Shown here: in pieces, positions 10,876-43,638 of the stretch | Layout of the letters: each line of letters starts with the position of its first letter | How positions within the stretch are numbered: the stretch's first letter is position 1 | Origin: Taxillus chinensis | Taxonomy: Eukaryota; Streptophyta; Magnoliopsida; Santalales; Loranthaceae | DNA: 64,000 nt | Reading direction: 5' to 3' | NCBI GenBank assembly: GCA_023512835.1 | Contig: CM042084.1 | Coordinates: 46,113,609-46,177,608, forward strand | Position numbers and translations under genes: made by a program | Notes under the pieces: model-generated | Databases searched by the model: none | Told to the model about the DNA's origin: nothing | The model's input: the letters and a program-made list of their open reading frames with translations, nothing else

Positions 10876-11175
10876 TTGCCGGATCACTTGAAGTTAAAGA
10901 TCAATCAAAGCAAGTGGATCCTTGATAGTGGATGCTCCGGACATATGACGGGTGATCAGACTCTGCTTGTAGAAGTTAATGATAAACAAGGTCCATTCGT
11001 TTCATATGGCGACAACAGCAAAGGTAAAACTGTCGGGTATGGCACTTTAACTAACGGCTGTGTATCAATCACTAAAGTTGTACTAGTCGAAGGTTTAAAG
11101 CATAACTTGCTAAGTGTCAGTAAGCTATGTGACAAAGGATTTCCTGTTTCCTTTTTTGTCCAACACCTGTACTAG
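10876..11175 (+). pseudogene. Retropepsin-like aspartic protease of C1
   Basis: This frame carries WILDSGCSGHMTGD, with active-site DSG at 10924-10932, then VSYGDNSKGKTVGYGTL and LKHNLLSVSKLCDKGF, the usual copia protease layout. It is the polyprotein-processing enzyme. The frame breaks at about 11160, just before the pre-integrase region; the domain itself looks intact. Confidence 0.82.
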
Positions 11176-12134: not shown

Positions 12135-12179
12135 AGTTGAAGAATCTATCCATGTAACCTTTGATGAAGCTAATCTCGT

Positions 12180-13688
12180 TTGGTCAAAAGTCGGTTCTTG
12201 AAATTCCAATATGCAGGTCATGGACGGAACGTCGATTACTCGAAGCTTATGAATATTCCTGTTACATATCCTGACCAACCACGTGGCATCAGCGAAACAC
12301 AACGAAATTTTATGGATGATGCTACGGATGACTCTGACTCAGGACTACCATTTAGCTTCGGACATACTCCTACGGATACACAAAATTCCGGAGCACCTTC
12401 AAGTCCGTCCGGACTAGTTAACACTGGAAGAAACAGTGTTGAAAAACCAACTAGTTCATCCGTACCTCTCAACACGGAAACATCTACTCCTGGACGAAGC
12501 TCAACCAGTCGATACAACCGAACCACCCAACTGGAAGAGCTTCAAATTGTTCAAGATCAACCAACACATGCACAGAATTATAGATGGACCCGAAACCATC
12601 CCTCAGATCAAGTGATTGGTGATCCTACTGTTGGTGTAAGAACAAGAGCAGCCACCTCCAACATGAGTCTTTACTCGTGCAAGATGAAGTCTCAAATAGA
12701 ACCAAAGGTGGTAGATGAAGTTCTTCAAGATTCGAATTGGATAGAAGCCATGCAAGAAGAGCTGAATCAATTTAAGAGAAATAATGTGTGGACCTTAGTA
12801 CCAAGGCCTAAGTCTCAGCAAGTCATTGGCGTTAAATGGGTGTTCCGGAACAAGCTTGATACGGATGGAATAGTAATCCGGAACAAAGCCAGACTGGTAG
12901 CCAAAGGATATCGTCAAGAAGAAGGAATTGATTATGATGAAACCTTTGCTCCGGTCGCAAAACTTGAGGCAATCCGTATGTTTCTGGCGTATGCTTCATA
13001 TGAAAACTTCATAGTTTATCAAATGGACGTCAAGAGCGCATTCCTGAATGGAGACCTTCAAGAGGAGGTGTATGTTGAACAACCTCCCGGCTTCATTGAA
13101 CCTAAGGCAGGACATCTTGTCTACAAACTTCGGAAAGCTCTATATGGTTTGAAGCAAGCTCCAAAAGCCTGGTACGACACCTTTGTCGAATTCCTACTTG
13201 CTCATAACTTCCAAAAAGGGAAGATAGACACCACCCTCTTTCTACGAAAAGAGAAAGGACACACTCTGATCGTACAAATATATGTGGATGATATCATTTT
13301 CGGATCAACGAATCCGAAGCTTTGTGAAGAGTTTGCTAAGTTGATGACAGGCAAGTTTGAAATGAGCATGATGGGAGAACTGTCCTACTTCCTTGGAATT
13401 GAAGTCAAACAATTAAAGGAAGGAATCTTCATTAATCAGGCTAAGTACACTCGCGATCTTATTAAGAAGTTTGGTATGGAAGGCTCATCTCCCGTCAAAA
13501 CTCCCATGCCTGTCGGTGCCAAGTTAGATCCGGATGTGGACGGCATATCGGTAGAATGTGATCGACTACAGAGGGATGATCGGATCCTTGTTGTATCTTA
13601 CGACAAGTCGCCCAGGTTATTATGTTTGCAACTTGCATTTGTGCATGATACCAGGCGAATCCCAAGGAGTCACATATGCTTCATGTAA
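12180..13688 (+). CDS. Reverse transcriptase (RVT_2) of C1, long open frame, C-terminally frameshifted
   Basis: A 502-codon frame encodes the copia RT. In order: a Ser/Thr-rich linker, then [78 protein letters not shown] and the catalytic YVDD at 13281-13292. The RT core (about 12700-13500) is uninterrupted. A frameshift near 13555 turns the tail into unrelated residues; the true continuation ([16 protein letters not shown]) appears in another frame at 13558. It is ancestrally part of a single gag-pol polyprotein, so this frame has no independent start. Confidence 0.85.
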
Positions 13689-14231
13689 AACGGATATTAA
13701 GGTATCTCAAAGGGACGATGAATTTGGGACTCTAGTACCCAAAGGAGTCCAACTTCACCTTATCCGGGGTACTCGATGCCGACTTCGCTGGATGTCGCAT
13801 CGACGAGAAAAGCACAAGCGGTACGTGTCGGTTTCTTGGAAATAGATTGATCTCATGGTTCAAGTAGAAGCAGAATTCCGTATCAACCTCTACTGAGAGG
13901 CGGAATATATAGCTGCCAGGAAGTTGCTTTGCGCACACTACTTTGGATGCAAAGTCAACTTACCGACTACGGATTCGACATGTCCTCTATTCCACTTTCT
14001 TGTGACAACACTAGTGCAATTGCCATCAAGAACAATCCTGTCATGCATCCTAAGACGAAGCACATTGAGGTCAGGTATCACTTCATACGCGATCATGTTC
14101 TCAAAAAGCATATTTCACCGGAACATGTTGCCACTGAAGATCAATTAGCAAACATACTTACAAAGCCCCTACCTGATGCGAGGTTTTCCGAACTACTCTT
14201 CCGATTAGGTATGCTCGACTTCTCTGCATAG
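13558..14231 (+). pseudogene. RT tail and RNase H of C1
   Basis: Fragments of the RT tail ([16 protein letters not shown]) and RNase H follow the RT. The last part (13929-14231) is open and ends naturally: WMQSQLTDYG, SCDNTSAIAIKNNP, HPKTKHIEVRYHFIRDHV and DQLANILTKPLPDARFSELL, the usual copia C-terminus. The middle (about 13560-13930) has several single-base frame breaks, which destroy the domain as written. Confidence 0.8.
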
Positions 14232-15895
14232 TTTCTCATTTGAATTACCCAACAAGATATTTACTCACAAACCATGCATTGTACGTTCTTGAAAGTAGTA
14301 GAAACTCACCGACTATCTTCTTGATCATACTTACTTGTTTAACGGTTTCATGTTTCGATATTAATCTCAACCTCATATTGGAAGGATGCTTGCGTTTCCC
14401 GACTGAAGTCGTTTAAAGCTAACATAATTACGGTGTATATGATTTACCTCTTTCGGGTTCATGATCTTAACTTCGTTAATCACCACATGACAAAAGCATG
14501 TTCATTTAGATTACTCTATTAACATGCATAGTTGAAGAAGTGAAATGGGTTAGCTTGGAATGCCTGGTGGATGAATACTCAAACGCAGTCGATCGATCAC
14601 GAAGTATAGTTTTCTAATAAGATAGACAGTGCTGAACTACAAATCGGAACGGTCAACCGAGAGGATTGCACAATCTACGGGGGAGAAAATGCTTTATATA
14701 TTATTCAGTAATACCCCCCGTATATGTCTCATGACCTTTTCTATTTGTCTATCCGAGGGGGAGCCTTTCATTGAGAGGATTAAATGATCTACGGGGAGCA
14801 GCAATGAACCCCTAATATGTCTCGGATTCTCCCTCCTCTAAACTTTTACTTCCGGATCTGATGGACATCTTGTTTTAAATTGGAAAAGTGGCATGTTTGG
14901 ATGTATTTTCTTCTTCAACCATGCATTTTAATCGACTAATCATCTGCTTTCTTTTGATATGTGTTCGCTTTATTATTGCTCACTTATGAATCCTAATGGA
15001 GCCAAATCATATGCTCTGTAATTAATCTTAGCTACGCTGTTCAGCAAGACGGTTTCGCTATGTTGACCTATATGAACCTGTGTATTGCTATCTGACATAT
15101 GCCCTGATTCAGTAATATTGATCACTTTCACGTTGCATACGTCTACTACATTCTTAGCCATGCATGAGTTCTGTTTCTTATTAGTTCGGATTATGTTGTT
15201 TTTCACTGATTATCTTCTTTACTCCGTACTAATCCTTGCCTGTTAAGCTTTTGTATTTTCGGTATATCTTTATTTAGCTACTAGGTTCAGATTTTCTTTG
15301 CAACCGTATTGATAAATCCAGTCCATAGTCTCGGATTTGAAGTGTTGTGGTACTTCTCTTCACTTCGACTTATTGATCGCAAAGGAATCTACTCTACTTT
15401 CTCACTAAACTCGTTTACGACGGACAAGGTCCATTATTCATCCGGATACTCTTTCATGAATATTATTAACTCCGGATGAGTGTCGGCTCTTTCCTCCGGA
15501 CTCCGACTTTGTTCAATTGTGACAATCCACGTATACTCATATGTCGCATGCTTTTGAGGAGGAATAATGATGATTCATTAAATGCATATCTCGGGTTGCA
15601 CACACACCTCTCTCGGATGGCAACCGGTTGTAATCTCTACTTGGTCATGCGGTCTCCACGACATCGTTTTATTCGGAGACGCCTTGATATCCGGACAAAT
15701 GACATCGGCATGTCGTGCGGGTCCCTACCTCACTCACACATTCCTAGACCCGCCGACATTTGCGGACTCGGTCTTATATGTTCCGATCATTCTGCTGAAG
15801 CACGAGTATTGCTCATTTCAAATCCCTAACCCTCTCATTCCCCCTTCTACTGTCAAGACCTCACCTTTCCTCTTTTCCTTCCCATCAAATCTGCA
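14232..15895 (+). other. Spacer between pol and the extra ORF of C1, with duplicated G/C-stem structures
   Basis: No convincing coding frame is seen. At about 14655-14825 two related units each hold a purine run (CGGGGGAG type) followed by about 30 nt and a complementary C run, each ending TATATGTCTC-like. The first gives an 8-bp stem (14676-14683 with 14715-14722). The same arrangement, with altered but still paired bases, is in E at 20345-20520. Confidence 0.5.
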
Positions 15896-18650
15896 ATGGC
15901 ACCCAGAATCTTTCTCTCCGGCGTTAATCCTGGCCATCTAGTTGATTGGAATGTCGTTTCCGATCCTCCGGATTGGTTTTACCAGCTTCGCCCTCTTCTT
16001 GAAGCCTCGCACATACTCAACCTGGTCTCCAATCCCGTCGCTCTTCTTATCGATGACATTCTTGAGTATTACCAACGGATTCACTGCACCACCGATTCCA
16101 TAACCTCTTATGTCCGCGGTGAATCCATCATCATCACTCCGGCTGTTCTCCTTGCTGCTCTCCACCTACCTCTTGGTGAACCACAGCGTCCGGATGCCGA
16201 TCCAATGGCGGCTTCTATGGGTTGCACGAACAAGGGGAAGGAATACAAGGTGAAATCCTTCCAGGGTCGCTATCAATGTATGGCGACGATTCTAAGTCGA
16301 TGCCTCTTCGCTCGCACATCAGCCCTGGACTCGGTTTAATACGATCTTCTACCGGCCATGTACGGCGTTTTTGAAGGTCTTCCGATGGATTGGGGGATGT
16401 TCTTATTTCGTTTGCTGCTGAGAATGGTCCCAAAAACCATTCCTTCGGGCGCATCCTCATCATTGTCTTCCCGATCTACGTCCGGACCATTTCGCCCGAA
16501 TTGATGCCGTCTCGTTTCCCTCGGCTTATTACCTTCGTCACCTTACGCCGGACGGGGAACATGACCGCTCGCCGACCCACTTGTAGCTCTCCGCATTCTC
16601 CCTGCCCTGAACAACAAGGCGGCTCCGTTGGTGACCCCTCCGACGCCCAAGCCCACGAGGTCGGGCTCGCACACCGGTCCTCCCGGATTCGGTCCGTTGC
16701 TGCGCCCTCCCACTCACGGGCCTCCCGACCAAGCGTCCGTGCTGAACCGTCCGAGGTTGCGGGGCCCTCTCGCAGCGAGTGCTTCTAAAGCCGTTTTCTC
16801 GGCCCCCTCTGCTGCGATGTTCCCACTCCCTCCACATCCGCTATAGCCGCTGCGGTTGATACCGCCTTGTTGTCGCCACCGCCGATGTCCCGCTGCTTCT
16901 CCAGGAAGCCCCCTTGCCTCCTCTACCTCAACCCCGAGATTACCTTGACCATCTCTCCGCCGTCACCTTAACGGACCTCTGGCTCCGTTTCGGCCTAGCC
17001 CACACCTCCTCCATTCCTGACACCGATCTCCGGGTGTTTTACACACGCAATACCCAATCCCCGGAGACCATGATCATCCGGAATCTGGACCACGGCTTTC
17101 TTCGCCGGCCGCCATTCCCGATGTGTCATTCCCTACACCCTCCGGGCCTCGCCGCACGGAGTCCTTCTCCCCTCGGGCCGGACCCTCTTCTCCTGCCGCC
17201 GCGATTCCCGTGGTTGACTTATCCGGTCAAAGTGGGTCTCTTGCTCCGGATGCCTCTAATGCTCCGGATGCCTCCGAAGCTCCGGATGCCTCTCGATGCT
17301 CCGGATGCTCCTCGCTGCTGCCGATACTCCTGCGGACTCCTCTCGCCCACCGCACTCCTGCTCTTGTTCATGCGGGGGAGTCCTCCAAAGCTCCGGAGTT
17401 AGTACTTGGGCGTGCCTCTTTTGGCACGGTCCACCCGATGCTTGTGCTTTCCGCTCAGCTGGACCGCCATGCCCAAGCTCAAAGCGCCCAAATTTCCGCC
17501 ATCGTTGCCAAAGTTGATGCCCTCGGCGCCCAACTCCTCTCCGCTCTCACCGACTCCTCCACTTCCATGGAGCAGAAAATGGATCTTGTCGCCACCTCCG
17601 TCCATTCACCGTCTACTTCCTTCGCGGATCCGGCGCATACGATGGCTCGTCCTCCTGTTGTTTCCCGGCGATCTCGCCAAACCGGGGAGAGAGTGTCATC
17701 CGATCCGTCTACTCCTTCGCCCCACAACCATCTACTCGGATTGAGAACCGGCCTGCCACTTCGTTGCTTCGGGGAGTTCAAATTCCCAAACGAAGCCGCT
17801 TCTCTCAACCAAGCTCCTCTCTGCACCTCCAGCTCCTCTTCCATCCTCCTCATCCGCAGTGATACCTTCCTCCCATCCTATGCGGAGTTTGACCCGTCCG
17901 ATGCGGATGGAAGCTTGCGCAAGGCAATGAAATCCTATGTTTGCGTCTTCTGTGAGAGAAGATGTCTTTACGAAATGTGCCCTTTCTCTCCGGCCGACAT
18001 TCGGACTCTTTGTTCGGAGAAAGGACTCTTTACTACGAGAAGACATTGACAACTTCTCGAGAGCTGCTAAAATGAAGATAAGGCTGTTTCCATCTCTTTA
18101 CGAAGATGGGCACTTGTTTGAAGTTCTGCCATGTTGGAATGAGGGCTATCTCCCCAGTGTGGAGTTAATTCAGACTTTCATCGACGGAACTGCTGAGGAT
18201 AGCAAGCCATGGAAAACTCTCTCAACCATCCTCATTCCGTACCGGATCATGTCGCCACACTTCATGATGGCTGTCTTCATGATTCGGTCCAGCGAGATGA
18301 TTCTCATTGATTCTCATCGGATTGTGGAGCACTTCGTTAGGAAGAATCAATGGGAACCTCTGTGTCTCGAACTAACGAAGCCATGAAGAAAGCCGGATTA
18401 TATAAAGAGTTGGGTATCACACCCCTCGCGTCCGGCCGAGAAACTCAAGGCGACATTCCGGGGCAAGAAGCAAGTACCACAACAGCCGGATGGAGATAGC
18501 TAGGAGCCTTTGTCCTGTCACTTCATCAAGTCGTTCTTAACTGTGGACAAACATTGGAGCCAACACTCCACCTTTACGATGAAGCGGGACAATGGAGCTG
18601 AGAGAGAAGGCAGCAACTATGATCTTCAAGTATAGTAAGCCTTATGTACC
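15896..18650 (+). pseudogene. Extra post-pol ORF of C1: plant-transposon-protein-like N-terminus, coiled coil, Ulp1-like C-terminus
   Basis: The probable start is MAPRIFLSG at 15896. The N-terminal region (15896-16450) has PPDWFYQLRPLLEASH and EYYQRIHCTTDS, then YVRGESIIITPAVLLAALHLP, resembling the 'putative plant transposon protein' family; a TAA at 16337-16339 interrupts it where E has Pro. A Pro/Ser-rich linker in shifting frames follows (about 16450-17400). A probable coiled coil comes next (QSAQISAIVAKVDALGAQLLSAL, about 17480-17560). The C-terminal region (about 18050-18640) has IPYR then HF (His at 18258-18260), LIDSH (Asp at 18309-18311) and VPQQ at 18474-18485. A TAG (18501-18503) lies six codons after the second Gln. 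That is the Ulp1/SENP layout with the Cys replaced by a stop. SIRE relatives carry 'env-like' ORFs here, but no signal peptide or membrane span was recognised. Confidence 0.65.
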
Positions 18651-20112: not shown

Positions 20113-21592
20113 TTTCATGATTCTTATTTCCATCTCTCATCACATGTCCAATGACTTCTCATATTGATTGAATTATTAACATGCGTGGTTGAAGAAATGA
20201 AATGGGTTAGCTCGGAATGCCCGGTGGATAAATCCACTGTTGAAGTCTGATCAGCTTTTTGAGTGGAGTTCATCATGGATAGACAACAATTTCTCAAGAT
20301 CTAAATGTTAAGCAGGAAACGTCCATCAAGAGGATCGCATGGTCTAAGGGAGAGAAAATGTTTTATCAATTACCCAAGTAATACCCCCCTTATATGTCTC
20401 GTGACCTCTTTCCTGGCTGTATATTTGAGGGAGAGTCTTTCTCGAGAGGATCACATGATCTAAGGGGGAGCAAAGACTTTATTTATTACTTAAGTAATGA
20501 CCCCCTGATATGTCTCGGATGCTCTACCCTATACACTCTCACTTTTGGATATGACTCGACATGCATTGTTGAATCAAAATTGTGACATGATTGAATGTTT
20601 TTGTTTCTTCAACTGTGCATCTTAGGTATGACAATCAATTGATTATTCTTGGCATGTATTATTCATCCATTCTCACTCATGAATCTTCAATTGGATAAAT
20701 CATATAGATTTAATTAATCTTAGTTACGTCTTTCAGCATGAAGGTTTTGCTATGTTGGCTTATATGAACTTATCTTGTTTCTTATCTGTCATATGCATTG
20801 ATTTCAGTAAAATGATCCTTAACTCATATGTATGTGTCTCGCTTTCACTTTGTTTATGCATAAATTCCATTATTTTTCATTAGTTCGGATTATGTTGCAT
20901 TTTTCGTATTTATCTCATATCCATACTAATTCCAACCTGTTAAGTCTTCCGTTCTTTTAGTTTATCTTTATGAAGTTTCAGGTTCGATTCTCTTTGCAAA
21001 TGATCGGTATATCTTGTCGATGTCTCGGATCTGATGTGTTGTGGTACCTCCTATCTTCTTGACTTCAAGATCACAAAGGAATCTACTTCTCTCTAGTTCA
21101 ACGACTTGTTTCTACGGACTTAGTCTGTCATTCATCCGGATGTTCTTACTACGGATACACCTTACCCGGATAATAGTCGGTTCATTTCCTCCTGACTCTT
21201 GAAACTCTCAAATTGCGATAATCCAAGTATTATCTCACATCACGTATTTTTGAGGAGGAATAATGATGGTTCATTAAATGCTCGTCTCAAGCCGGGCAAT
21301 TAGTCACTTCATTTTTCGGAAGAAGGCATACAACTGTCATAAATGCTTGGTTTTGCTACCTCCACATCATCTCTTTACCCGGAGACGCACAACTATCAAG
21401 TCTAATGAGATCAGATTGTCAGGCGGCTCACTATTCATTTCGCTTAAACCCTAAACCCGCTGGCATCCACTAACCCATTATATATATCTCAAGCATTCAA
21501 GCTAAGAGCGACTTATCACTCTCAAATTCAATAGTCGTTCTTCATCTTTTCAAAACCCTACATTTTCTTTCCCTTTTCTCAATCCGACTTCC
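20113..21592 (+). other. Spacer between pol and the extra ORF of element E
   Basis: This aligns with C1 14460-15895 and has no convincing frame. Two repeated units at about 20325-20520 carry G-run/C-run stems (20345-20350 with 20387-20392; 20463-20468 with about 20501-20506). Confidence 0.5.
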
Positions 21593-22407
21593 ATGGCACC
21601 CAGAACCGCTCTATCCGGCGTCTATCCAGGCCATCTGGTTGATTGGAACGCTGTTTCCAATCCTCCGGCGTGGGTTTTGGAACTACACCCCTTACTTGAA
21701 GCTAGCAATCTGTTAAATCTAGTCTCTGATCCGGTCGATCTTCTTATCAAAGATGTCGCTGAATACTACCGCAACATTTGCTGCACCACCGACTCCATCA
21801 GATCCACCGTTTGGGGTGAATCCATTGTCATCACCCCTACCGTTCTTCATGCCACTCTTCATTTCCCCTCTGATACTCATTAGCGATTTGGACCTAGAGC
21901 CAATGGCAGCCTCAATGGGTTGCACTTATAAAGGGAAGGAATACAAGCTGAAGTCCTTCCAGGGTTGCTATCGTTGTATGGCCACCATTTTGAGCCGGTG
22001 CTTTATGGCTTGTACAACAGCCCTCGACTCTATCCCATACGATCTGCTTCTAGCAATGTACGGAGTCTTTGAGACTCTCCCGATGGAATGGGGGACCTTT
22101 TTGTTTCAGCTGCTAGGCAATAACCCAAAGAATTAATCTTTTGGGCGGATACTCAGCATTGTTTTCCGGCATTTGTGTCCATCCCATTTCAACAGACATA
22201 GTGTTATCCCCTTCCCCTAAGCATACTATCTCCACCATCTAATGCCTGACGGGACTCTGACTTCTCGCCGGCCTTCTGCTTCTATCCGCCTTCTTCACGC
22301 TCAGGAACAACAGGGCAGTTCGGTTGGTGACCCAGCCAACAGCTCCGCCCCCGAGGTCAGCTCTGCCCACCGGTCCTCACGGATTCGGTCTGTGGCCGCT
22401 CCCTCTA
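21593..22407 (+). pseudogene. Extra post-pol ORF of element E, N-terminal part
   Basis: It starts MAPRTALSGVYPGHLVDW, closely matching C1 15896. EYYRNICCTTDS and the VWGESIVITPTVLHATL stretch correspond to the conserved N-terminal domain. The frame stops at 21881-21883 (TAG) and continues in another frame to about 22136 (MAASMGCTYKGKEYKLKSFQG, PYDLLLAMYGVFETLPMEWG). Element A then interrupts the reading at 22408, in the Ser/Pro-rich linker. Amino-acid similarity to C1 despite many silent changes suggests this ORF was under coding constraint. Confidence 0.65.
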
Positions 22408-23433
22408 TGTCACGCCCCGGATTTCCAACCCGAGGAAACCGGTTCGTCACTCCCCTTTACCCATCCAGTGGGCAAGGGGTTGATGTACAACATCTCACGC
22501 AAGACATCGTACACACAGCAGAAATTCACGAAGATGTAAATCAAATATCTTTATTAATTTCAAATCACAATAAACGTTTACAAATCCACATGCCTTTATT
22601 ACAATAAAATCCACTTTACAATATCTCCCCTCTGGGGTACAAGGCCTCTCAAAAATAATAATACAAATAACATCAATTAAAACCACAAACAGAACTGTTG
22701 TTCACCTTGGTGTTTCCACCTAACGCCTGTAGATCCCTAAGAAAAACAGAACACAGTAGGAGGGGTGAGCAACCACAACTCAATAGTGATCAAGTCTCCC
22801 TAACCCATCCCATGCACCTAACCACTACATGAGAATGTGTACTAGTGCAGTGTCGTGGCAGTAGTAAATACAAGTAAAGCACACCACTCAAATGGGCATA
22901 ACCACAGCCCCAGCCACGCTGGCTCTACAGCCTCACAGGCTACCAATTCCACAGCCTTCCAGGCTAACAATTTAACCGCCTCTCGGGCAAATATTTAACC
23001 CCTCTCAGGCAAACGTTTAACCGCCTTTCAGGCAAATAGTTTAGCCGCCTCTCAGGCAATAGTTCCCACAGCCTCTCAGGCTAACAATCATACAATCAAA
23101 CACATAACATACATTTCTGCCACACAGGCATAAAATCAAAGGCATGGCATGCGCACATTCACGGGTTTTCAAACTCAGCCAGACGGGCATAAAATCAAAC
23201 ACATAGCATGCATAGCCACACAGGCATAATCTCAAACACATAACATGCATAGTCACACAGGCATATTATCAAACACATAACATGTGTGGCCTCACAGGCA
23301 TAATATCAAACACTTAACATGCGTGGCCTCGCAAGCATAATATCAAACACTTAACATATGTATATATATACATCCAAGCAAAACACGCCATTGAAGGCCA
23401 ACATTCATATAGGAGATCACACCTATATGAATT

Positions 23434-23493
<60 letters not shown>

Positions 23494-24221
23494 ACCAAAC
23501 AGCCACATTGCCTATCACAAGGCCAAAGCCTTGGGATAGGTTCAAGGAGGAACAGAACCCCTACCTCTGGAAGATCCTCCCACGCTAGATGCCGTCCACC
23601 CACGCTAGACACTCCAGCAGCAACCAGGAGCTCTCCTTGTCTCTCTCTCTCTCTCTGCGACGGCTACAGTGGCTAACCAAAAGAAGAACCCTAAACCTAA
23701 GAGACCTCCACCTCTTTATATAGACATCACAACATCAAAACGACGTAGTTTTGATTAAGTGAATCCCAGCATCAAAACGACGTAGTTTTGATGGAACAGG
23801 CTACAACTTTCCTGCATCCACAGAAGACAAAATACCCACAATTCCAACATGCCCCTTTAGGAAAAGATGATTAGAATCACAAAACCAAAGTGATGGTGCA
23901 AAAATATGGATGCACACCATAATGCACGTCATATCCCCATATGACGTGCAGCTCCAAATGATGTGAAATTCTACCCCAAGCTTCCTTGAATGATGTAGAA
24001 GCGGGCATGCAATAAAAACCTTGCACGTCATAATGCCCCATATGACGTGCACTCTATTTCTGCCTCCCTAGGCTGCCCTCTTTCGTCAAAAGTTCCCTAT
24101 TTGGTAAATAAAATGATTTGGCTGAAGTCCATGAGTAGAAGTTCCCCAAAAACTAGAAAATTGCCACTCAAAAGGCAAAACTATGACTGACTCCACATAT
24201 CCCTAAACATGGGTCATTACA
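22408..24221 (-). repeat. 3' LTR of element A
   Basis: The plus strand runs TGTCACGCCCC to GGGTCATTACA. It contains a TA then TG microsatellite (about 23433-23491), a short CT tract (about 23639-23657), CACAGGCATAA-type repeats (about 23090-23360), the promoter module (23711-23792) and two CCCC-loop inverted repeats (23924-23949, 24023-24050). Confidence 0.9.
23711..23792 (-). promoter_or_regulatory. Promoter module in the A 3' LTR
   Basis: Palindromes with arms ATCAAAAC/GTTTTGAT lie at 23734-23755 and 23771-23792, start-to-start spacing 37 bp, both with intact CGACGT cores. A TATA run (minus CTATATAAAG) is at about 23713-23723. Confidence 0.55.
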
Positions 24222-24236
24222 TCCTCTCCCCCTTAA
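24222..24236 (-). other. Polypurine tract of element A
   Basis: The minus strand reads TTAAGGGGGAGAGGA directly before TGTAATGACCC, the start of the 3' LTR. Confidence 0.88.
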
Positions 24237-27200
24237 GACTTTTCGTCCTCGAAAAGACACAACGTGTAAGGAAAACAAACACATGTTACCCATTTGCTAA
24301 AACGGCAAACCCCAACACCCAAATGGGTCATACATCGCACACAAAGATGTAACAAGGACATACGTCCACAACCCAACAAAGCACCACCATAATTCATAAC
24401 GACATGCATCACAATATAACACATATCTGCATCTCAAAATACATCTCATATACAAATATGGGTCTCAAAAGGATAATACACAACATAAAACCGCATCACT
24501 ATCACTTGGCCAAAAGCCACCTCCCACCCTCAAGATTGTTCGTCCTCGGACAACTCCGGGTGTTGCTCACACAACGTGGACTTACGTTCCCATGTCCTTT
24601 CTGCAAGACGTCGTCCTCGAAAAGACAACACACCTTCCAGAACGCACATGCGAATGCACATCACCCACAACCATTCTCATACCCGCGACTGATGACATCA
24701 CACAATAACACACAAGAAGGCACGTACCTACAAACCCAATATAACACAACATGATAGGGAAACACATATTCGAATCTCACAAACAACCCATGTCCTCGTC
24801 ACTTAACACATATTTCACGAGTATGCACATGTCACGACAGTGTAAGACAACTCACATAGGTAGGTCACAGACCAAGTCACAGCACCAATGCTACTACAAG
24901 GAAAAACACCACAAATAAAATGAAACTTAAACATTCCACTGCCCAACTCAGCCGTAGGGAGTTTCCTCACAACCTTCCTACCTTTAGACTTTTCGTCCTC
25001 GAAAAGAGAAACCAAATAGCAAACAGCACGAGAAGATCAAAGCAACACATAACACTCATGAGCAAATCATGAACTAGAGCTTGGCCAATTAACGCACTGA
25101 CAACAACTCTTGTGAGCAAGTTTGACAACAGTGAGGTCGAGAAACCTCCCATAGATTTGCTAAGACCCCGACGACCAAACAAGGCCAACACCATCAGCCT
25201 ATGCATGAAGCATGCGGTCGCTAGAATTCATATGATTGAACGAGGAGGCACTGCATCGACACAACGGGGTACTCTACTGTAACTGCCTACGCGCGTCACA
25301 ATAGAACCAACACTCCAAAATTTAAGATACCTAACAGTAACCCACCACTAAGATTTGATGCAACTGACACCAACAATTTACAACGCAGCCACACCCCAGA
25401 TGTAAACCTCACCCTTACAGCAAGCATAATGAGGTCACAATGAAACACAGACAATCATGATAAGGGCATGATTCAAACCACAATCACATTCCCACACAGG
25501 GATATCACTACAGCAGCACAAGCATCACTGCTGAAATCCCCAAACTCTAACGCAAAACATGCTTGGGGATCCGAGGAACACATCCTCCATCGAGGCACAT
25601 TAAAACCCGACCAACACCAATGGCGGCTCACAACAACTTACAATCCAGGACACAATGATACTAGGATGGAGTTTGCCCTCAATCATTCGATTATCGTTAT
25701 GACTCCCAACAAAGTTCAAGGATGAATTCAAAATAGTAAATTCAGTTCCATACACAACCACAGTGAGACCAAAATCTATTATCGGGCTAACACCAATTAC
25801 CAACGTTGAGAGACTAGTAAAGAATCCCATGAACTAGAACGCCACACAAATAATACCTCTCTGACGACGGTCAAATAGGGATCCACCAAGGTCCCACACA
25901 GCCTTCACTAACTGAGGCTTATGTTACAACCCAAGTGATAACGCCTTACTCAGTCGGCAGACATTCCATGCGATAGGAATCCTTTGACGCCGGGTAGTTA
26001 CCAACAACGTAGTTCTCTCCACCCTAGAAAACTCTCTTACCTGCAACATGACAATAACGGAATCCTCGGAGTCACCACTCACAGGTCACAAGGGATTCCG
26101 TTGCCTCCAGGACATACTCCACCTCATGGCTCATTAACCCCGCTATACCAACCGTCACGTTCTATCTCAACACACCAACAAAACACTCAAACTGATCAAG
26201 AAATGCTCAGGCTCTAGCCTCAGCTAAATGTGATCACTGCCATTCCTTCGGGTAGGTACAGGAAACAAGACATGCAAATGCCTGATTCGGGACTTTCACG
26301 TAGCTCCCAAACACACCAACACCTTGATAGCGTGAACCATCACCCTTACCGCGTGATACTGTACATGAAAGGTTTTCAAGAGCACAAATGTAGGCCATCC
26401 GCCTACCCGTACTGCTCTAAAACATGCACATTTGTGACATCCGCCCGACATAAATCTCTCCCCAAGGAGTAGCACTAATACTCCTTCCAAGTAAAGACTG
26501 TTAAGTGACGCAACTCTGGGAATCAAACAGCCTTTTTCCCAACTTACCAACACTTTAATAACACCAGACAAGGAATAACATAAACAACATCACTTCTAAC
26601 ACTCTTCCTCATCCTCACACCACAATTAATATACCAATACACCACGCTTCATCATTCTCTACGCATATGTGTCGCAACACCCACACGTAGCAACTCCGCT
26701 ATATACCTTTACCACTTATGCAACACAATGCAACGAAACACAAGACACCTGACGAGTAGAACTTATCAGCTTTACACCTTCTCCTCTCCTTTAAGCCTAC
26801 TTCCCACAAGATATGGACCAAGGGAATGGCCCTACCATGCAAAAGCACACCCTTAGCCCCTAGAGAAATGTTTTCCAGATGTGGGTAAAAAGCCCGAACA
26901 AGGCCTGCCAAATCTTACTTGCTTACCTCTTTTTACCAATTGGATGCACCGGGCACGACCCATGAAACCCACTCACACCCGATAGGCGAGCTCCAGAACA
27001 CTTCACATTTCATACATGTGCATACCCATTTCACAACATATTCTAGGAACATTACTCAAGGTCTTTCACACACCACAAACATGACACATGGCCACTGCTT
27101 GACCATCCGAGAACCCGAACACCTCTATAGTTACTAACCAAAACTTGCAACGACCACTCTAGCCAACAAGATAACACTTCAAGGACTCTAAGAGCAGGCT

Positions 27201-27890
27201 ATACTAGCTACGTTTTCCACCCTCAACCACAACGCTTGGAAAGGTAACCATAGGAATATCCCTTTCAAGTAGTACTCCAACACATACCTTTATCCACATA
27301 AGAACATATCTCTATTATTCAAGGTTGCCATGGAGGGGTCACACGTTACCCCCAAGTCATCATCACCTCATGCCTCAAGCTCCACTAGCTAGCAAAAAGG
27401 TAGCCTACAAGGTTTGATTACTTTAAATTTTCACAGATGCCGAAGTTGAATGCTACTCATATATAAAATCAACACCCAAATGTTTATAAGTTACTTATTA
27501 TTCTTCTAGTGTTATAAATATATATATATATATATATTCATTTTACTTTTTTTAACAGGTCTCCAACCACATTCATTTGGAATGGTAACCCAAATGATCT
27601 CCTAAGCTTTACTTAACATAAAATGGTGGCTCAAAGCCCTCCCAGAGAACATACCCCACTATCACAAGAATTAGCAATAAAAGGTTCGCCAGCCCTCACA
27701 TAAACTAGTACGAGACTCAACCGACAACTCACTAAGAGAACACCTTACCACCAATAAAAATGAGATCTTATCACATGAGAATTGAAATCATACCCTTTAT
27801 TAAGGTAAGTCCTGTCTTGCTCTTCTACTGGCCTCACTAGGTAGTCCTCTTGCCTCCAATCGGGGCTCGACATTAAGCTTTACCCCTAGC
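24237..27890 (-). other. Internal region of element A without recognisable coding capacity
   Basis: About 24501-24620 resembles the 3' end of pol in element B (43930-44030: AAGATTGTTCGTCCTCG and the following chromodomain tail). Beyond that, about 3.2 kb shows no domain and no frame over about 120 codons. The composition is AC-rich on the plus strand. Its origin is unknown; it may be decayed pol or captured sequence. Confidence 0.5.
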
Positions 27891-28400
27891 TCACCGAGCA
27901 AGTCCTCTAGCTTCGCTCCTGGTCCTACCAAAACAGACTGTACGAAGATGTCCTACTTTTCCACAAAGGCGGCACCGGTACTCCTTCTTGGCACACTCTC
28001 TTTTCCAATGTCCCGGTTGTCTACAGCAAGCACAACCCTTAGGGAAACAGAACTCAAATGGAAGTGTTGAGGGTTGACCCCCAACTTGAAACTCGTGACC
28101 ATTCTCAACTTGCGCCCTTTGCCTCTTAAGTCCTTCCAGCTGATTGGGAAAATTTGGCTTCCGTTGATCCGCACCCAAACTCCCCTCAATGATATGGGTT
28201 GATAGCTCTCGGCGTACCTCGCTCCTAATCAGTTGTCGAATCTGATCCCTCATCCCTTGAATAATCGGGCCAAAACGCCAACCTCTGCCGTGATTAGATT
28301 ATCACCTTCAGCCTGCAGCTCTCCAACTGGCCCAGCCTGAGTGGCAGGCTCCTCTGTTACCCCGATAGTCGCACGGTCTACAGTGTTCAGAGACATTGGC
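27891..28400 (-). pseudogene. gag: Gag remnant of element A with two CCHC knuckles
   Basis: On the minus strand a possible start lies at about 28400 (MSLNTVDRA). The frame is broken near 28260. The rest (28253-27891) reads MRDQIRQLIRSEVRREL and ends with CACCRQPGHWKREC and CRLCGKVGHLRTVC, two intact CX2CX4HX4C knuckles. Element B has the same knuckle pair in Gag, separated by a long capsid-like region that is missing here. Retaining RNA-binding knuckles, LTRs, PBS and PPT but no pol fits mobilisation by a partner element. Confidence 0.72.
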
Positions 28401-28976
28401 TACATGAAAAGGTAGTGATCTAGATTAACCCTCAACGATCTCAACAACCTCGAGGCCACCACCGACTAAGTAGCTTAAGCTATAACACGCATTAATACTA
28501 CACGAATCCATAGATTCACATTGCACAGACGATATAAATTCACACCCCACCACATTGTTCATAACCGCGGTTATTTCACACAATACCACACAAATCACAT
28601 GCTCAATCATTCCAAGAACACCAACATTATTGTTATTTTTCAGTTCGTTCACATTTCACAAGCTTCAAGTTCACAAGGACAGTTTCAATACCACAAATTC
28701 TTTTCCATGCTTTCATGCTCAATTCATCACAAAATTTCAGAGTTGCACAATTAAAACTTTATCACGTTCAAACCATTTATCATGCAATTACACATAAGCA
28801 ACAAATGTAACTAGTGCTCTAATGCCAATGCATGCAAATCCTACCACAGGACTAGACTACCCCAAGTACACCTTAGAGGCTCAAAGAGGACCATGTTGAT
28901 CAGGCACGTCCCTCCAGGCTCCTCCAAGGGACTCAAGATAACAAGTCCGCCCACTACCCTAGGCCAACTAGACCAT

Positions 28977-28988
28977 GCTCTGATACCA
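28977..28988 (-). other. Primer-binding site of element A
   Basis: The minus strand reads TGGTATCAGAGC, three bases from the LTR end (28992). It is intact. Confidence 0.9.
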
Positions 28989-30023
28989 TACTGTCATGCC
29001 CCGGATTTCCAACTCGAGGAAACCGGTTCATGACTCCCCTATACCCACCCAGTGGGCAAGGGGTTGATGTACAACATCTCACGCAAGACATCGTACACAC
29101 ACAGCAGAAATTCACGAAGATATAAATCAAATATCTTTATTAATTTCAAATCGCAATAAACATTTACAAATCCACAAGCCTTTATTACAATAAAATCACT
29201 TTGCAATATCTCCCCTCTAGGGTACAAGGCCTCTCAAAAATAATAATACAAATAACATCAATCAAAACCACAAATAGAACTGTTGTCCACCTTGGTGTTC
29301 CCACCTAATGTCCGTAGATCCCTGAGAAAAATAGAACACAGTAGGAGGGGTGAGCAACCACAGCTCAGTAGTGATCAAGTCTCCCCAACCCATCCCATAC
29401 ACCTAACCACTACATGAGAATGTGTACTAGTGCAGTGTCGTGGCAGTAGTAAATACAAGTAAAGTACAACACTCAAATGGGCGTAATCACAGCCCCAGCC
29501 ACGCTGGCTCTACAGCCTCACAGGCTACCAATTCCACAGCCTTCCAGGCTAACAATTTAACCGCCTCTCGGGCAAATATTTAACCGCCTCTCAAGCAAAT
29601 GTTTAACCGCCTCTCAGGCAAATAGTTTAACTGCCTCTCAGGCAAATAGTTCCCACAGCCTCTTAGGCAAACAATCATACAATCAAACACATAACATACA
29701 TTTCTACCACACAGGCATAAAATCAAACACATGGCATGCGCATATTCACGGGTTCTCAAACTCAACCACACGAGCATAAAATCAAACACATAGCATGCAT
29801 AGCCACACAGGCATAATCTCAAGCACATAACATGCATAGTCACACAGGCATATTATCAAACACATAACATGTATGGCCTCACAGACATAATATCAAACAC
29901 TTAACATGCATGGCCTCGTAGGCATAATATCAAACACTTAACATACGTATATATATATACATCCAAGTAAAACACGCCATTGAAGGCCAACATTCATATA
30001 GGAGATCACACCTACATGAATTT

Positions 30024-30083
<60 letters not shown>

Positions 30084-30223
30084 CCAAACAGCCACATTGC
30101 CTATCACAAGGCCAAAGCCCTGGGATAGGTTCAAGGAGGAACAGAACCCCTACCTCTGGAAGATCCTCCCACGCTAGATGTCGTCCACCCACGCTAGACA
30201 CTCCAGCAGCAACCAGGAGCTCT

Positions 30224-30226
<3 letters not shown>

Positions 30227-30310
<84 letters not shown>
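30227..30310. repeat. CT microsatellite, about 42 units
   Basis: An uninterrupted TC run lies in the transcribed part of the A 5' LTR, just downstream of its TATA box on the minus strand. The paired LTR has about nine units. Confidence 0.95.
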
Positions 30311-30311
<1 letters not shown>

Positions 30312-30365
30312 ACGGCTACAGTGGCTAACCAAAAGAAGAACCCTAAACCTAAGAGACCTCCACCT

Positions 30366-30445
30366 CTTTATATAGACATCGCAACATCAAAACAACGTAG
30401 TTTTGATTAAGTGAATCCCAAAGATCAAAATGATGTAGTTTTGAT
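30366..30445 (-). promoter_or_regulatory. Promoter module in the A 5' LTR (CpG-eroded)
   Basis: The palindromes at 30386-30407 and 30424-30445 keep the ATCAAAAC/GTTTTGAT arms, apart from CpG losses: CAACGT in the first and TGATGT in the second. A TATA run is at about 30366-30375. This LTR would drive transcription of A. Confidence 0.55.
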
Positions 30446-30880
30446 GGAACAAGCTACAACCTTCCCGCATCCACACAAGACAAAATACCCACAATTCCAA
30501 CATGCCCCTTTAAGAAAAGATGATTAGAATCACAAAACCAAGATGATGGTGCAAAAATATGGTTGCACGCCATAATGCACGTCATATCTCCATATGACGT
30601 GCAACTCCAAATGATGTGAAATTCTACCCCAAGCTTCCTTGAACCATGTAGAAGGCAAGCATGCAATAAAAACCTTGCACGTCATAATGCCCCATATGAC
30701 GTGCACTCTATTTCTGCCTCCCTAGGCTGCCCTCTTTCGTCAAAAGTTCCCTATTTGGTAAATAAAATGATTTGGCTGAAGTCTATGAGTAGAAGTTCCC
30801 TAAAAACTAGAAAATTACCACTCAAAAGGTAAAACTGTGACTAACTCCACACATCCCAAAACATGGGTCATTACACTCCA

Positions 30881-32079
30881 TCTCCCGCGGCTCCCAGCAT
30901 AGCGTTCACGCTGATCCGTTCGAGGTTGCGGGGCCATCTCAGCCTAGCTGTCTTCCGGCTGTTTCGTCAGCACCATCTGCTGCTAATACCCCCGCACCTA
31001 TTTCTCCTGACGTTGCTGCTGCCGGTGTTGCTGCTGTAGTGGCTGATGTTCCCGCATCTCCTCTGGAAGTCCGTTTGCACCCACTTCCTCAACCCCGAGA
31101 CTATCTAGACTGTCTCCCTGCCGACACTCTTATGGACCTCTAGTTCCATTTTAGCATTGCATACACCGCTACCATCCCTGACAATGATCTCCAGGTGTAT
31201 TATGCACGCCATACCTAAACCCCGCAAGATATGATCGTCTGGAATCTGGACCACGGCTTTCTTTTGCTGGCTTTTCTTCCTGACGCACCGCTTGCTGCTG
31301 TTACCTCTGGACTAGCCCATGACGCACAAGTTCCTTCCCCTACTAAGGTCGGGCCCTCTTCTCTTGCTGCAATTCCTATTGTTGACCTCTCTAGTCACAG
31401 CGGATCTGCTGCCTCGGATGCCTCTGATGGTCCGGCTGACCCTCCTACTGCTGCTACTTAAAAACCTCTCTATCCTCCTATCGACTCCTCTGCCCCGTGC
31501 ACTCCTGCATCTCTTCATGCGGGGGAGTCCTCCAAAGCTCCAGAGTTTGCACTTGGGCGAGCTTCTTTTGGCTTGGTCCATTCCGACACTGTGCTCTCCG
31601 CCCAGCTGGACCACCATGCTCAAGCCCAGAGTGCCCAAATCGCTCCCATCGCCGTTAAGGTTGATGCCCTAGGCGCCCAACTCCTCTATGCGCTAACCGA
31701 CTCTTCCACTTCCATGGAGCAAAAAATAGAACTTGTGGCCTCTTCCGTGCATTCATTGTCTACCTCCTTTGCGGATATGGCTCACGCTCCTGCCACTCCC
31801 CGGCGATTTGCCAAAACGGGGGAGAATGCGCCATCTGATCCTGCTGCAGCTCCCTCCGTTCATGCTGGTAAGTGGCGTGCATTTACACTTCCTCCAGGAA
31901 TACCTATCCCCAAACGCAGCCGCTTCACTCAGCCCAGCTCCTCCATTGCAGCTCCTCCTTCGACTTCTCCATCTAAGGCCATCACCTTCCTTCTATCATA
32001 CGCGGAACTCAATCCACATGATGCGGATGGAAGTCTTTACAATAATATGACTAAGTATACCACCTCTATTGCCGAGTGA
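30881..32079 (+). pseudogene. Extra post-pol ORF of element E, linker and coiled-coil part
   Basis: The reading resumes after element A, in the Pro/Ser/Ala-rich linker. Frames break several times, but 31573-32079 is open and closely matches C1: HAQAQSAQIAPIAVKVDALG, then TDSSTSMEQKIELVASSVHS, PKRSRFTQPSSS and LSYAELNPHDADGSLYNNM, ending in TGA. The first part is a probable coiled coil. Function is unknown. Confidence 0.65.
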
Positions 32080-32772
32080 AAATGTCTGGCAGATATCTCT
32101 CCCTTCTCACCTCAAGATCTAAGTACTTTACGTTCTGAGAAGGGCTTGTTCACTAGTGATGACATAGACAACTTCTCTCGGGCGGTAAAGATGGAGAAGA
32201 GGCTGTTTCCGTCTCTGTACGAGGACGGACACGTTATTGACGTTCTGTCGTGTTGGTCTGAGGGTTATCTTCCAAATGTGGCCCACATCCGGACCTTCAT
32301 TGACGAAGCTGTTGAGGACAACAAACCTTGGAAAAATCTTACCTCTGTCCTCATTCCGTACCGGGTCAAGACTCTGCATTTCATGTTTATTATCTTTATG
32401 ATGCCTTCAAAGCAGCTGCTCCTAATTGATTCTCATTAGATTGTGGAACACAAGGTAAGAAAGAATCAATTAGAACCTTTGCGGCTTCGTTTGACAGAAG
32501 CAGTAAGACAAACCAAGCTTTATGAAGATATGGGTCAAACACCCTTGGCTCCTACTGAAAAGCTAAAAGCGGCGATCCGGAACAAGAAGAATGTGCCTCA
32601 ACAGCTCGAAGGAGATAGCTAGGGAGCTTTTGTCTGCTTCTTTATAAAGTCCTTCGTGAAGGTAGATGAAGACTGGAACAACATCGTCAACTTTACGATG
32701 GAGCAGATGATGGAGCTTCGTGAGAAAGCAACAACAATGATCTTCAAGTATAGTAAGCATTATGTTCCATAA
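32080..32772 (+). pseudogene. Ulp1/SENP-like C-terminal region of the extra ORF in element E
   Basis: Conserved with C1: DIDNFSRAVKMEKRLFPSLY, GYLPNVAHIRTFIDE, then IPYRVKTLHF with His at 32377-32379 and LLLIDSH with Asp at 32428-32430. The His-Asp spacing of 17 residues matches human SENP1 as I recall it. Then VPQQ (32593-32604) and, six codons after the second Gln, a TAG at 32620-32622, followed by GAFVCFFIKSF. In Ulp1/SENP enzymes the catalytic Cys followed by Gly occupies that spot. C1 has TAG at the same place. E has a further TAG at 32437-32439 where C1 has CGG. These proteases normally cleave SUMO-type conjugates; activity here is not expected. The frame ends at about 32772. Confidence 0.62.
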
Positions 32773-32912
32773 TGTAATAAATTTGTACTAAGGATGAAAA
32801 TGTATTCATGTTGCTAATGAATGGAATGTGGAAGCTATCTTTATTTTTATTTGTATATCTTGTTGCCTCATTTACCAGATCAGATTACAAAGAGTTTTGG
32901 CATATCCATATT

Positions 32913-32921
32913 GGGGGAGAT
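32913..32921 (+). other. Polypurine tract of element E
   Basis: GGGGGAGAT directly precedes the 3' LTR. Confidence 0.85.
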
Positions 32922-34116
32922 TGTTGGATCAAACCTAGAATTTGGATGATGCGATTAAAACCCTATGTAATTTGTTTTGAGATCTTCTATGTCTATTCTA
33001 AGTTATTGCAGAAGATAAAACTCTAAATCGGATCTTCACTCGTGAGAGCAAAGCTAAGGACAGGATACATAATCCTGATCTGGACCAACATGAGTGCTCT
33101 CAAATACTTGGTAAATAACCAAGCCCTCATACGGAATAAGGATTATTCGTGCAGACTAAACACTTCAAGTTATAGACCAAGGAATCCACATCTTACATTG
33201 CTGAATAAGGACCCAAGTCCTTTGTTCGCTCAGAGTAAGGAAAAGAAATATGGAGTGAGGAATCCAAACCTTTACTCGAGTGGAGTAAGGATGTGCTGAT
33301 ACAGAGTAAGCCATCCGGACCTTTTTCTCATGCGGAGTAAGGAAGCGTTGATACGGAGTAAGCCCTCCGAACCTTTCATTCACACGGAGTAAGGAAGCGC
33401 TGACACGGAATAAGGATTCCAGTATCAATTTAACACAGAGTAAGTAACTACTGACACGGAGTAAGAATCCAAGCTTCACTAACACGGAGTAAGGAATCTT
33501 ACGACGGACTAAGAAGACACTACTTCACTTTATCAGCTTCGCATTCAAGTTATCAGCTTGTTGTGTCCCGATGTAAGAAAGATCTGTTAAATATCTAAGT
33601 CATCTTACATGTGGATCACACGGAGATATAGATAGAGCCTTAAATGCAATTAGGATCACGTGAAGAAATTCAATATGTTTAAAGTCCCAAGATTTTGAGC
33701 ACCATATCGGCGAAAATTAAAACAAAAGCATTTTCTGAGAAGAACTTCAATGCTACACAGTGCTCGTAAAATCCAATTCCAAAAATGTCTCCCAGGCATG
33801 TCTATATATATTAAGCTTTGTATATTTTCACATGGGCGCATACATGTACAAGAGCTCTTAGAGATTAATTTGGCTAGTGTGTGTTATTGTAAAATAGAGT
33901 GCTAGAGAGTTTTAGTAAATCAAAAAGCTTATCATTAGCTTTAATCTGCTATTATTTTGTTGTAATTATCTTTTGATAATAAAACAGAATACTTTCACTA
34001 TCTGGTTATCTTCCGCACTGATTCTATCTTTTAACTAGAAAAGTGTTGTGCTAAAGAAGAAGAAGAGTTTTCGATAAGAGCCTATTCACCCCCCTCTAGG
34101 CTCCTAGGGACCAACA
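32922..34116 (+). repeat. 3' LTR of element E
   Basis: It starts TGTTGGATCAAACC and ends GGGACCAACA. The U3 array of CGGAGTAAGGA motifs spans about 33125-33500 and a TATA run lies at about 33802-33810. It has clearly diverged from the C1 LTRs, fitting an older copy or another subfamily. It is followed directly by copia F LTR sequence. Confidence 0.9.
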
Positions 34117-41817: not shown

Positions 41818-42306
41818 TTATATGTCACGCCCCGGATTTCCAACCCGAGGAAACCGGTACGTGACTCCCCTTTTTACCCACACGGAGGGCAAAGGGGTTA
41901 GGATACAAACCAAGAACTGAACATTTTAAACATTCACAACACATTCAAGAAAAATAAAGTCCATCAAGTCCACAAACCAAATCAGGTCTTTAATACAAAG
42001 TCTTCTTTTCAATCCATCCCCATTGGGGTTACATCGATTCCCATAATAAAATAACATAAACAATAAAATAAATAAGGTCTTCCACCTTGGGGTCCCACCT
42101 AACGCCTGTAGGTTCCTGTAAAGAAAACAACATGGTAGGAGGGGTGAGCAACCACAGCTCAGTAGGGATCATGTCTCCCCAACCCATCCCATGCACCTAA
42201 TATCTACATGCCTTGTGTACAAGTGCCGTGTCGTGATAAAATTATTCCACCAGATATAGTTACAGGTATAACAAGAAGCACAATCATACATGGGCTGGTA
42301 CATAAA

Positions 42307-42480
42307 CACTCCTGGGCTTCCACCCACCGGGTTTGAAGAACGGTCCCGGGCTTCCACAGCCACCGGGTTCTACAAAACAGTCCCGGGCTTCCACAGCCAC
42401 CGGGTTCCACAAAACAGTCCCGGGCTTCCACAGCCACCGGGTTCCACAAAACAGTCCCGGGCTTCCACAACCACCGGGTG
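42307..42480. repeat. 37-bp tandem repeat, five copies, in the B 3' LTR
   Basis: The unit starts TCCCGGGCTTCCACAGCCAC and recurs at 42344, 42381, 42418 and 42455, with a diverged first copy at about 42307. The 5' LTR has only four units. Confidence 0.92.
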
Positions 42481-43118: not shown

Positions 43119-43195
43119 TTATATAGGCCTCCCACTATCAAAACGACGTAGTTTTGATTAAGTGAAACCCAGGATCAAAACGACGTAGTTTTGAT
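43119..43195 (-). promoter_or_regulatory. Promoter module in the B 3' LTR
   Basis: Palindromes lie at 43137-43158 and 43174-43195, both with intact CGACGT, next to a TATA run (minus CCTATATAAGG, about 43118-43128). Confidence 0.55.
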
Positions 43196-43623: not shown

Positions 43624-43638
43624 TCCTCTCCCCCTTAA
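43624..43638 (-). other. Polypurine tract of B
   Basis: The minus strand reads TTAAGGGGGAGAGGA directly before the 3' LTR start TGTAAGGACCC. Confidence 0.9.

Follow-up and report, generated by a model that had tools for sequence, protein, structure and literature searches.

Decayed C48 (Ulp1/SENP-like) protease domains in the extra open reading frame behind pol of copia retrotransposons in Taxillus chinensis

A stretch of 64 kb from the genome of Taxillus chinensis (C1:46113609-46177608, in the following “the window”) contains nested long terminal repeat (LTR) retrotransposons, and two of these elements, copy C1 and the older copy E, carry an extra open reading frame (ORF) of the kind that follows pol. 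Profile matches and gene order leave us highly confident that the predicted protein of this ORF ends in a domain of the C48 (Ulp1/SENP) protease family, and that the ORF is located behind a copia pol. Judged from their sequences, both window copies are decayed and inactive relics of a two-domain protein that has His, Asp, Gln and Cys at its predicted catalytic positions elsewhere in the genome, for which a 521-Mb assembly (nine contigs of 48-60 Mb) was searched.

The original prediction had claimed an Ulp1/SENP-type domain for the extra ORFs of both copies on the basis of short motifs, and all of these can be read in E in the one reading frame of 32080-32772, which is interrupted by stops: IPYRVKTLHF, LIDSH with the Asp 17 codons after the His, VPQQ, and then GAFVC. 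The spacings that had been given for SENP1, 17 residues from His to Asp and six from Gln to Cys, are both present in the SENP1 sequence of our profile alignment and equal those of E, where the second Gln of VPQQ lies six codons ahead of a stop and GAFVC follows directly after this stop. When stops are translated as X, E matches PF02902 with 22.8 bits (cut-off 20.7; E-value 9.4e-5), and PF02902 is the sole Pfam family above its cut-off for this translation. Single open pieces of E and C1 gave no match to PF02902 or to any other Pfam family above the cut-off, and the first open piece of E gave no useful match in the PDB; only the complete domain gives a signal. When 17 relatives found elsewhere in this genome were combined into a profile, with E excluded, the profile finds the domain in E with 162.6 bits (1.8e-49) and in C1 with 116.1 bits (3.1e-35), and it finds no third site in the window at an E-value of up to 1e-3. 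The proteins of E and C1 are 65% identical over 110 codons, and their ratio of nonsynonymous to synonymous substitution rates (dN/dS) of 0.16 (bootstrap 0.06-0.30) is a coding signature. The passed Pfam cut-off, the matches to PDB entries described below, the profile of the relatives and the dN/dS values rule out a chance match, and the claim of a C48-type domain is therefore supported as a prediction of homology.

In both copies His, Asp and Gln are all present, and the position of the catalytic Cys is taken by a stop codon (18501-18503 in C1), a point that the original prediction had not contained. As this stop lies exactly at the position of the nucleophile, neither copy is expected to make an active enzyme; in C1, the reading frame of the domain also breaks after about 18383. 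The stop is found at the same Cys codon in both copies, the DNA of which is about 30% different there, and this may reflect chance or a shared history. With the domain of E as query, the genome yielded 8636 first-look candidates, of which 150 were scored; all 150 have E-values of at most 2.3e-102 and, apart from E itself, identities of 66-83%, and 32 of them are without internal stop (counted from the table of matches). The Cys codon was read in 31-base slices from ten of the 150, six without stops and four with stops elsewhere, and it encodes Cys in nine of them and Tyr in one. A loss of the Cys common to the whole lineage of E and C1 is thus unsupported, and the two copies appear as dead members of a family that, as far as sampled, mostly keeps its nucleophile.

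A wider view was obtained with PF02902 itself, for which the genome search gave 4308 first-look candidates; all of the 150 that were scored lie above the cut-off. From these searches 20 loci of 10 kb, 20 of 1.8 kb and eight short loci were taken (L001 onward), and 42 distinct loci remain when the duplicates (L001 = L009, L003 = L010, L005 = L011, L007 = L028), L009 (cell-type, partial match only) and L027 (no match) are dropped. His, Asp, Gln and Cys are found in 41 of the 42 (for L023, spread over two pieces); the exception is L012, in which Tyr replaces His. As the loci were picked with a C48 profile, mostly by top scores, and as the profile used for reading itself includes 17 of them as rows, this count leans towards a conserved motif. 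Natural open ORFs match PF02902 in ten of ten cases, with 44.1-79.7 bits and E-values from 3.5e-22 (the cell-type gene of L009) to 2.9e-11. Even groups with no more than 22-31% identity to L025 retain the catalytic residues. A tree of the domain separates these groups; the joins of its long branches are not trusted, and no branching order is drawn from it. Among 43 pattern matches in viral contigs there was no relative. L009:4505-7780 (G000:C191) and L027 (G000:C254) lie on small contigs with a GC content of 0.52-0.54, and the ORF on C191, which is open over 1092 codons, encodes an Ulp1 domain of the cell type (6dg4 as top PDB match, 2.6e-28); both contigs are possibly foreign DNA in the assembly.

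Comparison with the sequences of solved structures connects the domain with SENP1 and Ulp1. A profile of 18 domains (mixed set) matches SENP1 (1.6e-10), yeast Ulp1 (1.2e-8), SENP2 (5.2e-7) and the chlamydial Dub1, ChlaDub1 (1.8e-6), and among the 23 PDB sequences under 0.01 there is one unrelated protein. A profile of ten copia-type domains only matches Ulp1 (1.2e-7) and SENP1 (2.8e-6), and in both profiles the best SENP1 and Ulp1 entries outscore ChlaDub1. Single element ORFs match Ulp1/SENP1 only weakly: the ORF of L041 alone does so with 9.9e-8, and the whole ORF of L025 alone matches Ulp1 with 0.031, ranked below an unrelated match to ATP synthase delta. The unrelated protein found with the mixed set is dynein light chain 10 (0.0044, profile positions 45-105 of the domain alignment), and this weak match is probably due to chance. 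According to the title of one paper, Sireviruses reportedly interact with dynein light chain 8-like proteins.

Nei-Gojobori comparisons over the C48 domain show constraint on its codons. Across nine pairs, dN/dS ranges from 0.13 to 0.36, i.e. the domain has been under purifying selection, with 0.26 (0.15-0.40) for E and L025, 0.16 (0.09-0.39) for C1 and L025, and 0.13-0.36 for six other pairs, and the upper bootstrap bound never exceeds 0.56 in the nine pairs. Among 18 open domains, the pairs with unsaturated dS also include some with 0.45-0.52 (four very close pairs) as well as 0.53 and 0.73 (two distant pairs), values that are somewhat lowered because open frames were chosen. RNase H from the same elements has a dN/dS of 0.06-0.16 in three pairs, which indicates that the C48 domain is somewhat less constrained than pol.

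Which kind of element carries this domain? C1 is a complete LTR element on the + strand with the target-site duplication (TSD) TCTAG on both flanks, and its extra ORF (about 15.9-18.65 kb) follows a pol of the RVT_2 type that ends at 14231. With LTRs, primer binding site and TSD around the ORF, the position after a copia pol that had been noted before is borne out, and these features, i.e. LTRs, primer site, 5-bp TSD and copia pol, also rule out a Mutator-like element (MULE) of the KAONASHI (KIU) type as carrier of the C1 domain. The carrier of C1 is a copia LTR element with a Sirevirus-type end. In case of E, the extra ORF begins near 21506, and a piece of pol at 2888-7109 possibly belongs to E and was severed by the insertion of C1; a reversed LTR-like stretch (4005-5416) lies inside this piece.

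The carrier element was determined for part of the 42 loci. Of the 20 ten-kb loci, ten have copia reverse transcriptase or RNase H ahead of the domain in matching orientation, and for L010 it was found one stretch further upstream. A hallmark of Sireviruses is a terminal polypurine tract (PPT) with the octamer AGGGGGAG, followed by AT and the TG of the LTR, together with extra octamers upstream (PMC2829016). A PPT/LTR junction of this type, the exact GGGGGAGATTG followed by T or C, was found in 18 of the 42 loci, at a distance of 560-891 bases on the downstream side of the His motif. In a scan of 11 loci, nine have the exact terminal octamer, and extra copies of AGGGGGAG between ORF and LTR amount to three each in L018, L021, L024 and L026, two each in L015 and L017, and one in L019; L010, L028 and L025 have no extra octamer there, and L016, a gypsy locus, has no octamer whatever. 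C1, E and L025 end with TGGGGGAG-AT-TG, which is one base off the consensus, and have no extra octamer behind the ORF, so that the two window copies show the Sirevirus PPT signature only in part. A simple scan found no inverted repeat with an exact 8-base arm at the terminal PPT of C1 or E, and no LTR pairs were found for L017, L010, L028 and L025 within the upstream stretch of 8 kb. The carriers of L011, L041 and L044-L046 could be of another kind.

The ORF is found not only behind copia pol. In L016, the upstream genes are of the Ty3/gypsy type (RVT_1, 2.4e-30; RNase H; integrase zinc domain), and the integrase core and tail, as read by eye, are followed on this strand, after a gap of about 700 bases, by the extra ORF. 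The same two-domain type of ORF is thus associated with copia pol in several groups and with gypsy pol at one locus; the gypsy case is based on the gene order of L016. L028 was dropped as a gypsy element with a C48 ORF, because its 3' end is of the Sirevirus type despite the gypsy-like gag and integrase pieces upstream. Such pieces upstream of a Sirevirus-type 3' end with C48 are present in L051:4986-6592 and in L028:338-5671 (G000:C9), and they may reflect nesting or a chimaera.

The remainder of the protein is less easily classified. The N-terminal parts are homologous in C1, E, L025, L010, L013/L014, the group L015-L024 and L016, as exemplified by L014 and L016 (2e-26), C1 and L014 (9e-15), and L010 and L014 (5e-41). 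Matches to Transposase_32 (PF20167) remain under the 45-bit cut-off in L016 and L014 (7.1e-8; 9.4e-4), and the N-terminal pieces of C1 and E have no Pfam match. The two ends of the protein are joined by a stretch of low complexity, which gave weak matches of a coiled-coil-like kind. Kyte-Doolittle plots with 19-residue windows, calculated for eight ORFs where these are open, show nothing above 1.6 in four ORFs and a single window barely past this value (1.63-1.65) in each of the other four, and a membrane anchor is therefore not evident. The positions of the described features are compiled in Table 1.

Table 1. Positions of the two copies and their extra ORFs in the window, and of the ORF behind gypsy genes in L016
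Feature	Position	Strand	Remarks
5' LTR of C1	7389..8491	+	TSD 7384-7388 before, primer binding site 8494 after
C1 pol aspartic-protease motif, kept	10915..10947	+	motif scan
C1 copia reverse transcriptase	12174..13688	+	RVT_2, PF07727, 5.7e-79
C1 pol RNase H end, upstream of extra ORF	13851..14231	+	named by eye, without family match
C1 extra ORF, N-terminal Transposase_32-like piece	15830..16339	+	
C1 extra ORF, middle piece	17021..18049	+	
C1 C48 domain, decayed	18015..18575	+	frame breaks; stop 18501-18503 at Cys position
3' LTR of C1	18798..19922	+	95.6% identity to 5' LTR; TSD 19923-19927 after
E extra ORF, N-terminal Transposase_32-like part	21506..22405	+	cut from remainder by nested LTR element
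Nested LTR element splitting E extra ORF	22408..30886	.	LTR-like repeats about 22408-24230 / 28992-30886, 93-94% identity
E extra ORF remainder (linker and C48), single frame	30876..32772	+	in-frame stops 31141, 31216, 31459, 32077, 32437, 32620
E C48 (Ulp1/SENP-like) domain, decayed	32080..32769	+	profile match 32032-32763; stops 32437-32439, 32620-32622
E catalytic His codon	32377..32379	+	
E catalytic Asp codon	32428..32430	+	17 codons past His
E oxyanion-hole Gln codon	32602..32604	+	
E stop codon at catalytic Cys position of relatives	32620..32622	+	
E Sirevirus-like PPT	32912..32919	+	TGGGGGAG, then AT, then LTR TG
E 3' LTR	32922..34116	+	
L016 region with Transposase_32-like + C48 extra ORF behind Ty3/gypsy integrase	L016:3-5235 (G000:C6:17799800-17809799)		same strand as integrase

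Apart from these features, the window contains a further LTR-like pair (41823-43624 / 49181-50954, 95.8% identity), and a repeat with a 37-base period is common to the LTR-like parts of several of its elements, with stretches at 1702-1913, 23142-23390 and 29729-29977.

Proteases of this family are known from other mobile elements. The Ulp1 domains of plant MULEs that the original prediction had mentioned are indeed described in PMC6117577 and PMC13317346, the former giving at least 97 MULEs with an intact C48 domain, and the latter describing KIU-carrying Vandals as causing hypomethylation of their relatives. Like the KIU/VANC Ulp1 genes of these MULEs, the domain described here is an element-borne C48 domain with many copies and long conservation. 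In contrast to them, its carrier is not a DNA transposon but belongs to the LTR retrotransposons, as is evident from its copia pol, its primer site and a PPT of the Sirevirus type, and its N-terminus is Transposase_32-like, a distinction that is drawn from published descriptions. With the cellular C48 proteases SENP1, Ulp1 and the plant ULPs it shares the His-Asp-Gln-Cys residues and the SENP1 spacings of 17 and 6 residues, but it is distant from them, borne by mobile elements and combined with a different N-terminus. A C48 domain joined to a mobile-element protein is also described for Ginger1 DNA transposons, which have C-terminal Ulp1 or OTU domains (PMC2836005), and for NeSL/Utopia non-LTR retrotransposons, which have an N-terminal Ulp1-like domain (PMC4640811); in these other classes and organisms the domain is fused to the transposase or reverse transcriptase protein, whereas it belongs to a separate post-pol ORF in the copia elements.

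By position and strand, this ORF is equivalent to the Sirevirus “env-like” gene (eORF-3'F, SIRE lineage). An extra ORF was reported for 74% of the SIRE elements, with 19 groups that show no similarity to one another, and its having a function was doubted (Neumann 2019, PMC6317226); the origin of the Sirevirus env-like gene has been called unknown and its function unproven (PMC3414828). In the main text of Neumann 2019, the terms peptidase and ulp have no occurrence and no C48/Ulp domain is named. The 3' additional ORF (aORF) of sunflower Athila elements is similar in having a Transposase_32-type domain (PF20167 match, PMC11728184), but in the elements described here a C48 domain follows, and Ulp, SUMO and protease are absent from the main text of that paper. 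The words Ulp1, protease, SUMO and ubiquitin are likewise absent from a review that deals with additional ORFs of LTR elements in plants (PMC7264820). A screen of 121 angiosperm genomes reported 15 uncommon domains, which were confined to Gypsy elements and absent from Copia elements (PMC9289625), and it could have missed a copia C48 domain because it was limited to 5 kb of the reverse transcriptase and protease categories were filtered out. Among the titles and abstract beginnings listed by literature searches on C48/Ulp1/SUMO proteases and retroelements, none reports a C48 domain in copia or Sirevirus elements. Transposon-borne C48 proteases are therefore known, and the copia/Sirevirus carrier as well as the pairing with a Transposase_32-like domain are, as far as these sources extend, undescribed.

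What could such a protein do for the element? In copies that transposed, the domain was probably catalytically active, to judge from residues and selection. The N-terminal part may direct the protein to DNA, RNA or chromatin of the element, and the C48 domain could there take SUMO, or a modifier like it, off the silencing factors of the host or off the Gag or integrase that the element itself encodes, whereby the element would evade SUMO-dependent transcriptional silencing long enough to replicate. This idea is derived by analogy: in Arabidopsis, SUMO1/2 take part in the silencing of transposons, and MOM1 is a SUMO-binding protein (PMC6084981), and hypomethylation of related elements has been ascribed to VANC proteins of MULEs, some of them with Ulp1 (PMC13317346). 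We infer from such parallels that SUMO would be the substrate rather than ubiquitin or NEDD8, and that the use would be in anti-silencing; deSUMOylation for this purpose remains a tentative proposal, to which we give somewhat less than an even chance. The broader statement that, in several copia groups of the Sirevirus type, the extra ORF behind pol consists of a Transposase_32-like N-terminus, a low-complexity linker and a C48 domain and has an anti-silencing role could equally well turn out right or wrong when taken as a whole. More speculative, and in our view rather improbable, is the idea that the “env-like” gene found in many LTR retrotransposons of plants does not encode an envelope but a transferable anti-silencing unit made up of two domains, the Transposase_32-like targeting part and the C48 domain, which would have been passed between copia and gypsy elements and kept by selection for undoing SUMO-dependent silencing.

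Several points weigh against an active, silencing-directed protease. Both window copies are dead and without Cys; stops interrupt the domain in 118 of the 150 scored members of the E family, E included; and of the sampled slices one in ten has Tyr for Cys, and the Gly adjacent to the Cys is changed in three of the nine Cys members. The count of 41 out of 42 loci is biased to conservation by the choice of loci and by the 17 that are in the profile. The name Transposase_32 does not by itself imply DNA binding by the N-terminal domain. The SUMO-ligase activity of PIAL1/2 is described as dispensable for silencing (PMC6084981), a review gives the function of the Ulp1 domain as unknown (PMC13317346), and the link to SUMO is one of family resemblance, as the same profiles match the deubiquitinase/deneddylase ChlaDub1.

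Which alternatives exist for a deSUMOylase that counteracts silencing? The modifier could be ubiquitin or NEDD8, because the profiles also match ChlaDub1, and the domain would then act as a deubiquitinase or deneddylase that shields element proteins or particles from the proteasome. The PDB names ChlaDub1/2 accordingly, and the plant protein DEN1 is given as a deNEDDylase of the same family (PMC6117577); the higher scores of the top SENP1 and Ulp1 entries in both profiles point the other way, and while sequence alone leaves the substrate undecided, we regard such a function as a minority possibility. Another protease function would be a second maturation step, in which the domain cuts Gag or the extra-ORF protein in the particle in the manner of adenovirus-type CE-clan enzymes. 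It would suit this function that the domain forms the end of a protein encoded by the element and has remained with pol in several groups, and CE-clan folds include viral polyprotein proteases. However, the usual aspartic-protease motif of pol is kept in C1 and was also found at 39399 of the window and in L049, and as C1 keeps this motif, the C48 domain is not a replacement for the pol protease. Moreover, Gly-Gly is missing in two of seven extra ORFs and occurs 2-4 times in the others with no repeated pattern seen, and the best PDB matches are SENP1/Ulp1 and ChlaDub1 and not a viral maturation protease, which together make a maturation role unlikely.

It could also be argued that the domain is a useless passenger, a captured fragment of a host gene that hitch-hikes with the element, as plant elements often transduplicate host genes and as most scored members of the E family have the stops mentioned above. 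Against this stand the low dN/dS values of the nine pairs, the catalytic residues kept across highly divergent groups, and the two-domain architecture, which is preserved in copia groups and behind gypsy pol, and we therefore consider a passenger very unlikely. A retrovirus-like envelope protein, as the label “env-like” would imply, can hardly be reconciled with a C-terminal C48 domain and with the lack of a strong membrane segment in the eight ORFs, as far as these are open, and is the least probable of all these options.

With a C48 domain at its end, the open question of the function of the Sirevirus env-like gene becomes a biochemical one that can be answered by one assay. The copy number of the domain will affect how many ULP genes are counted in plants and how such genomes are annotated. 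Beside MULE, Ginger and NeSL elements, a SUMO-type protease is now found in a group of LTR retrotransposons as well, which suggests that very different elements repeatedly acquired the same means of interfering with host protein modification, and that these elements may bring along their own tool against the SUMO regulatory system of the host.
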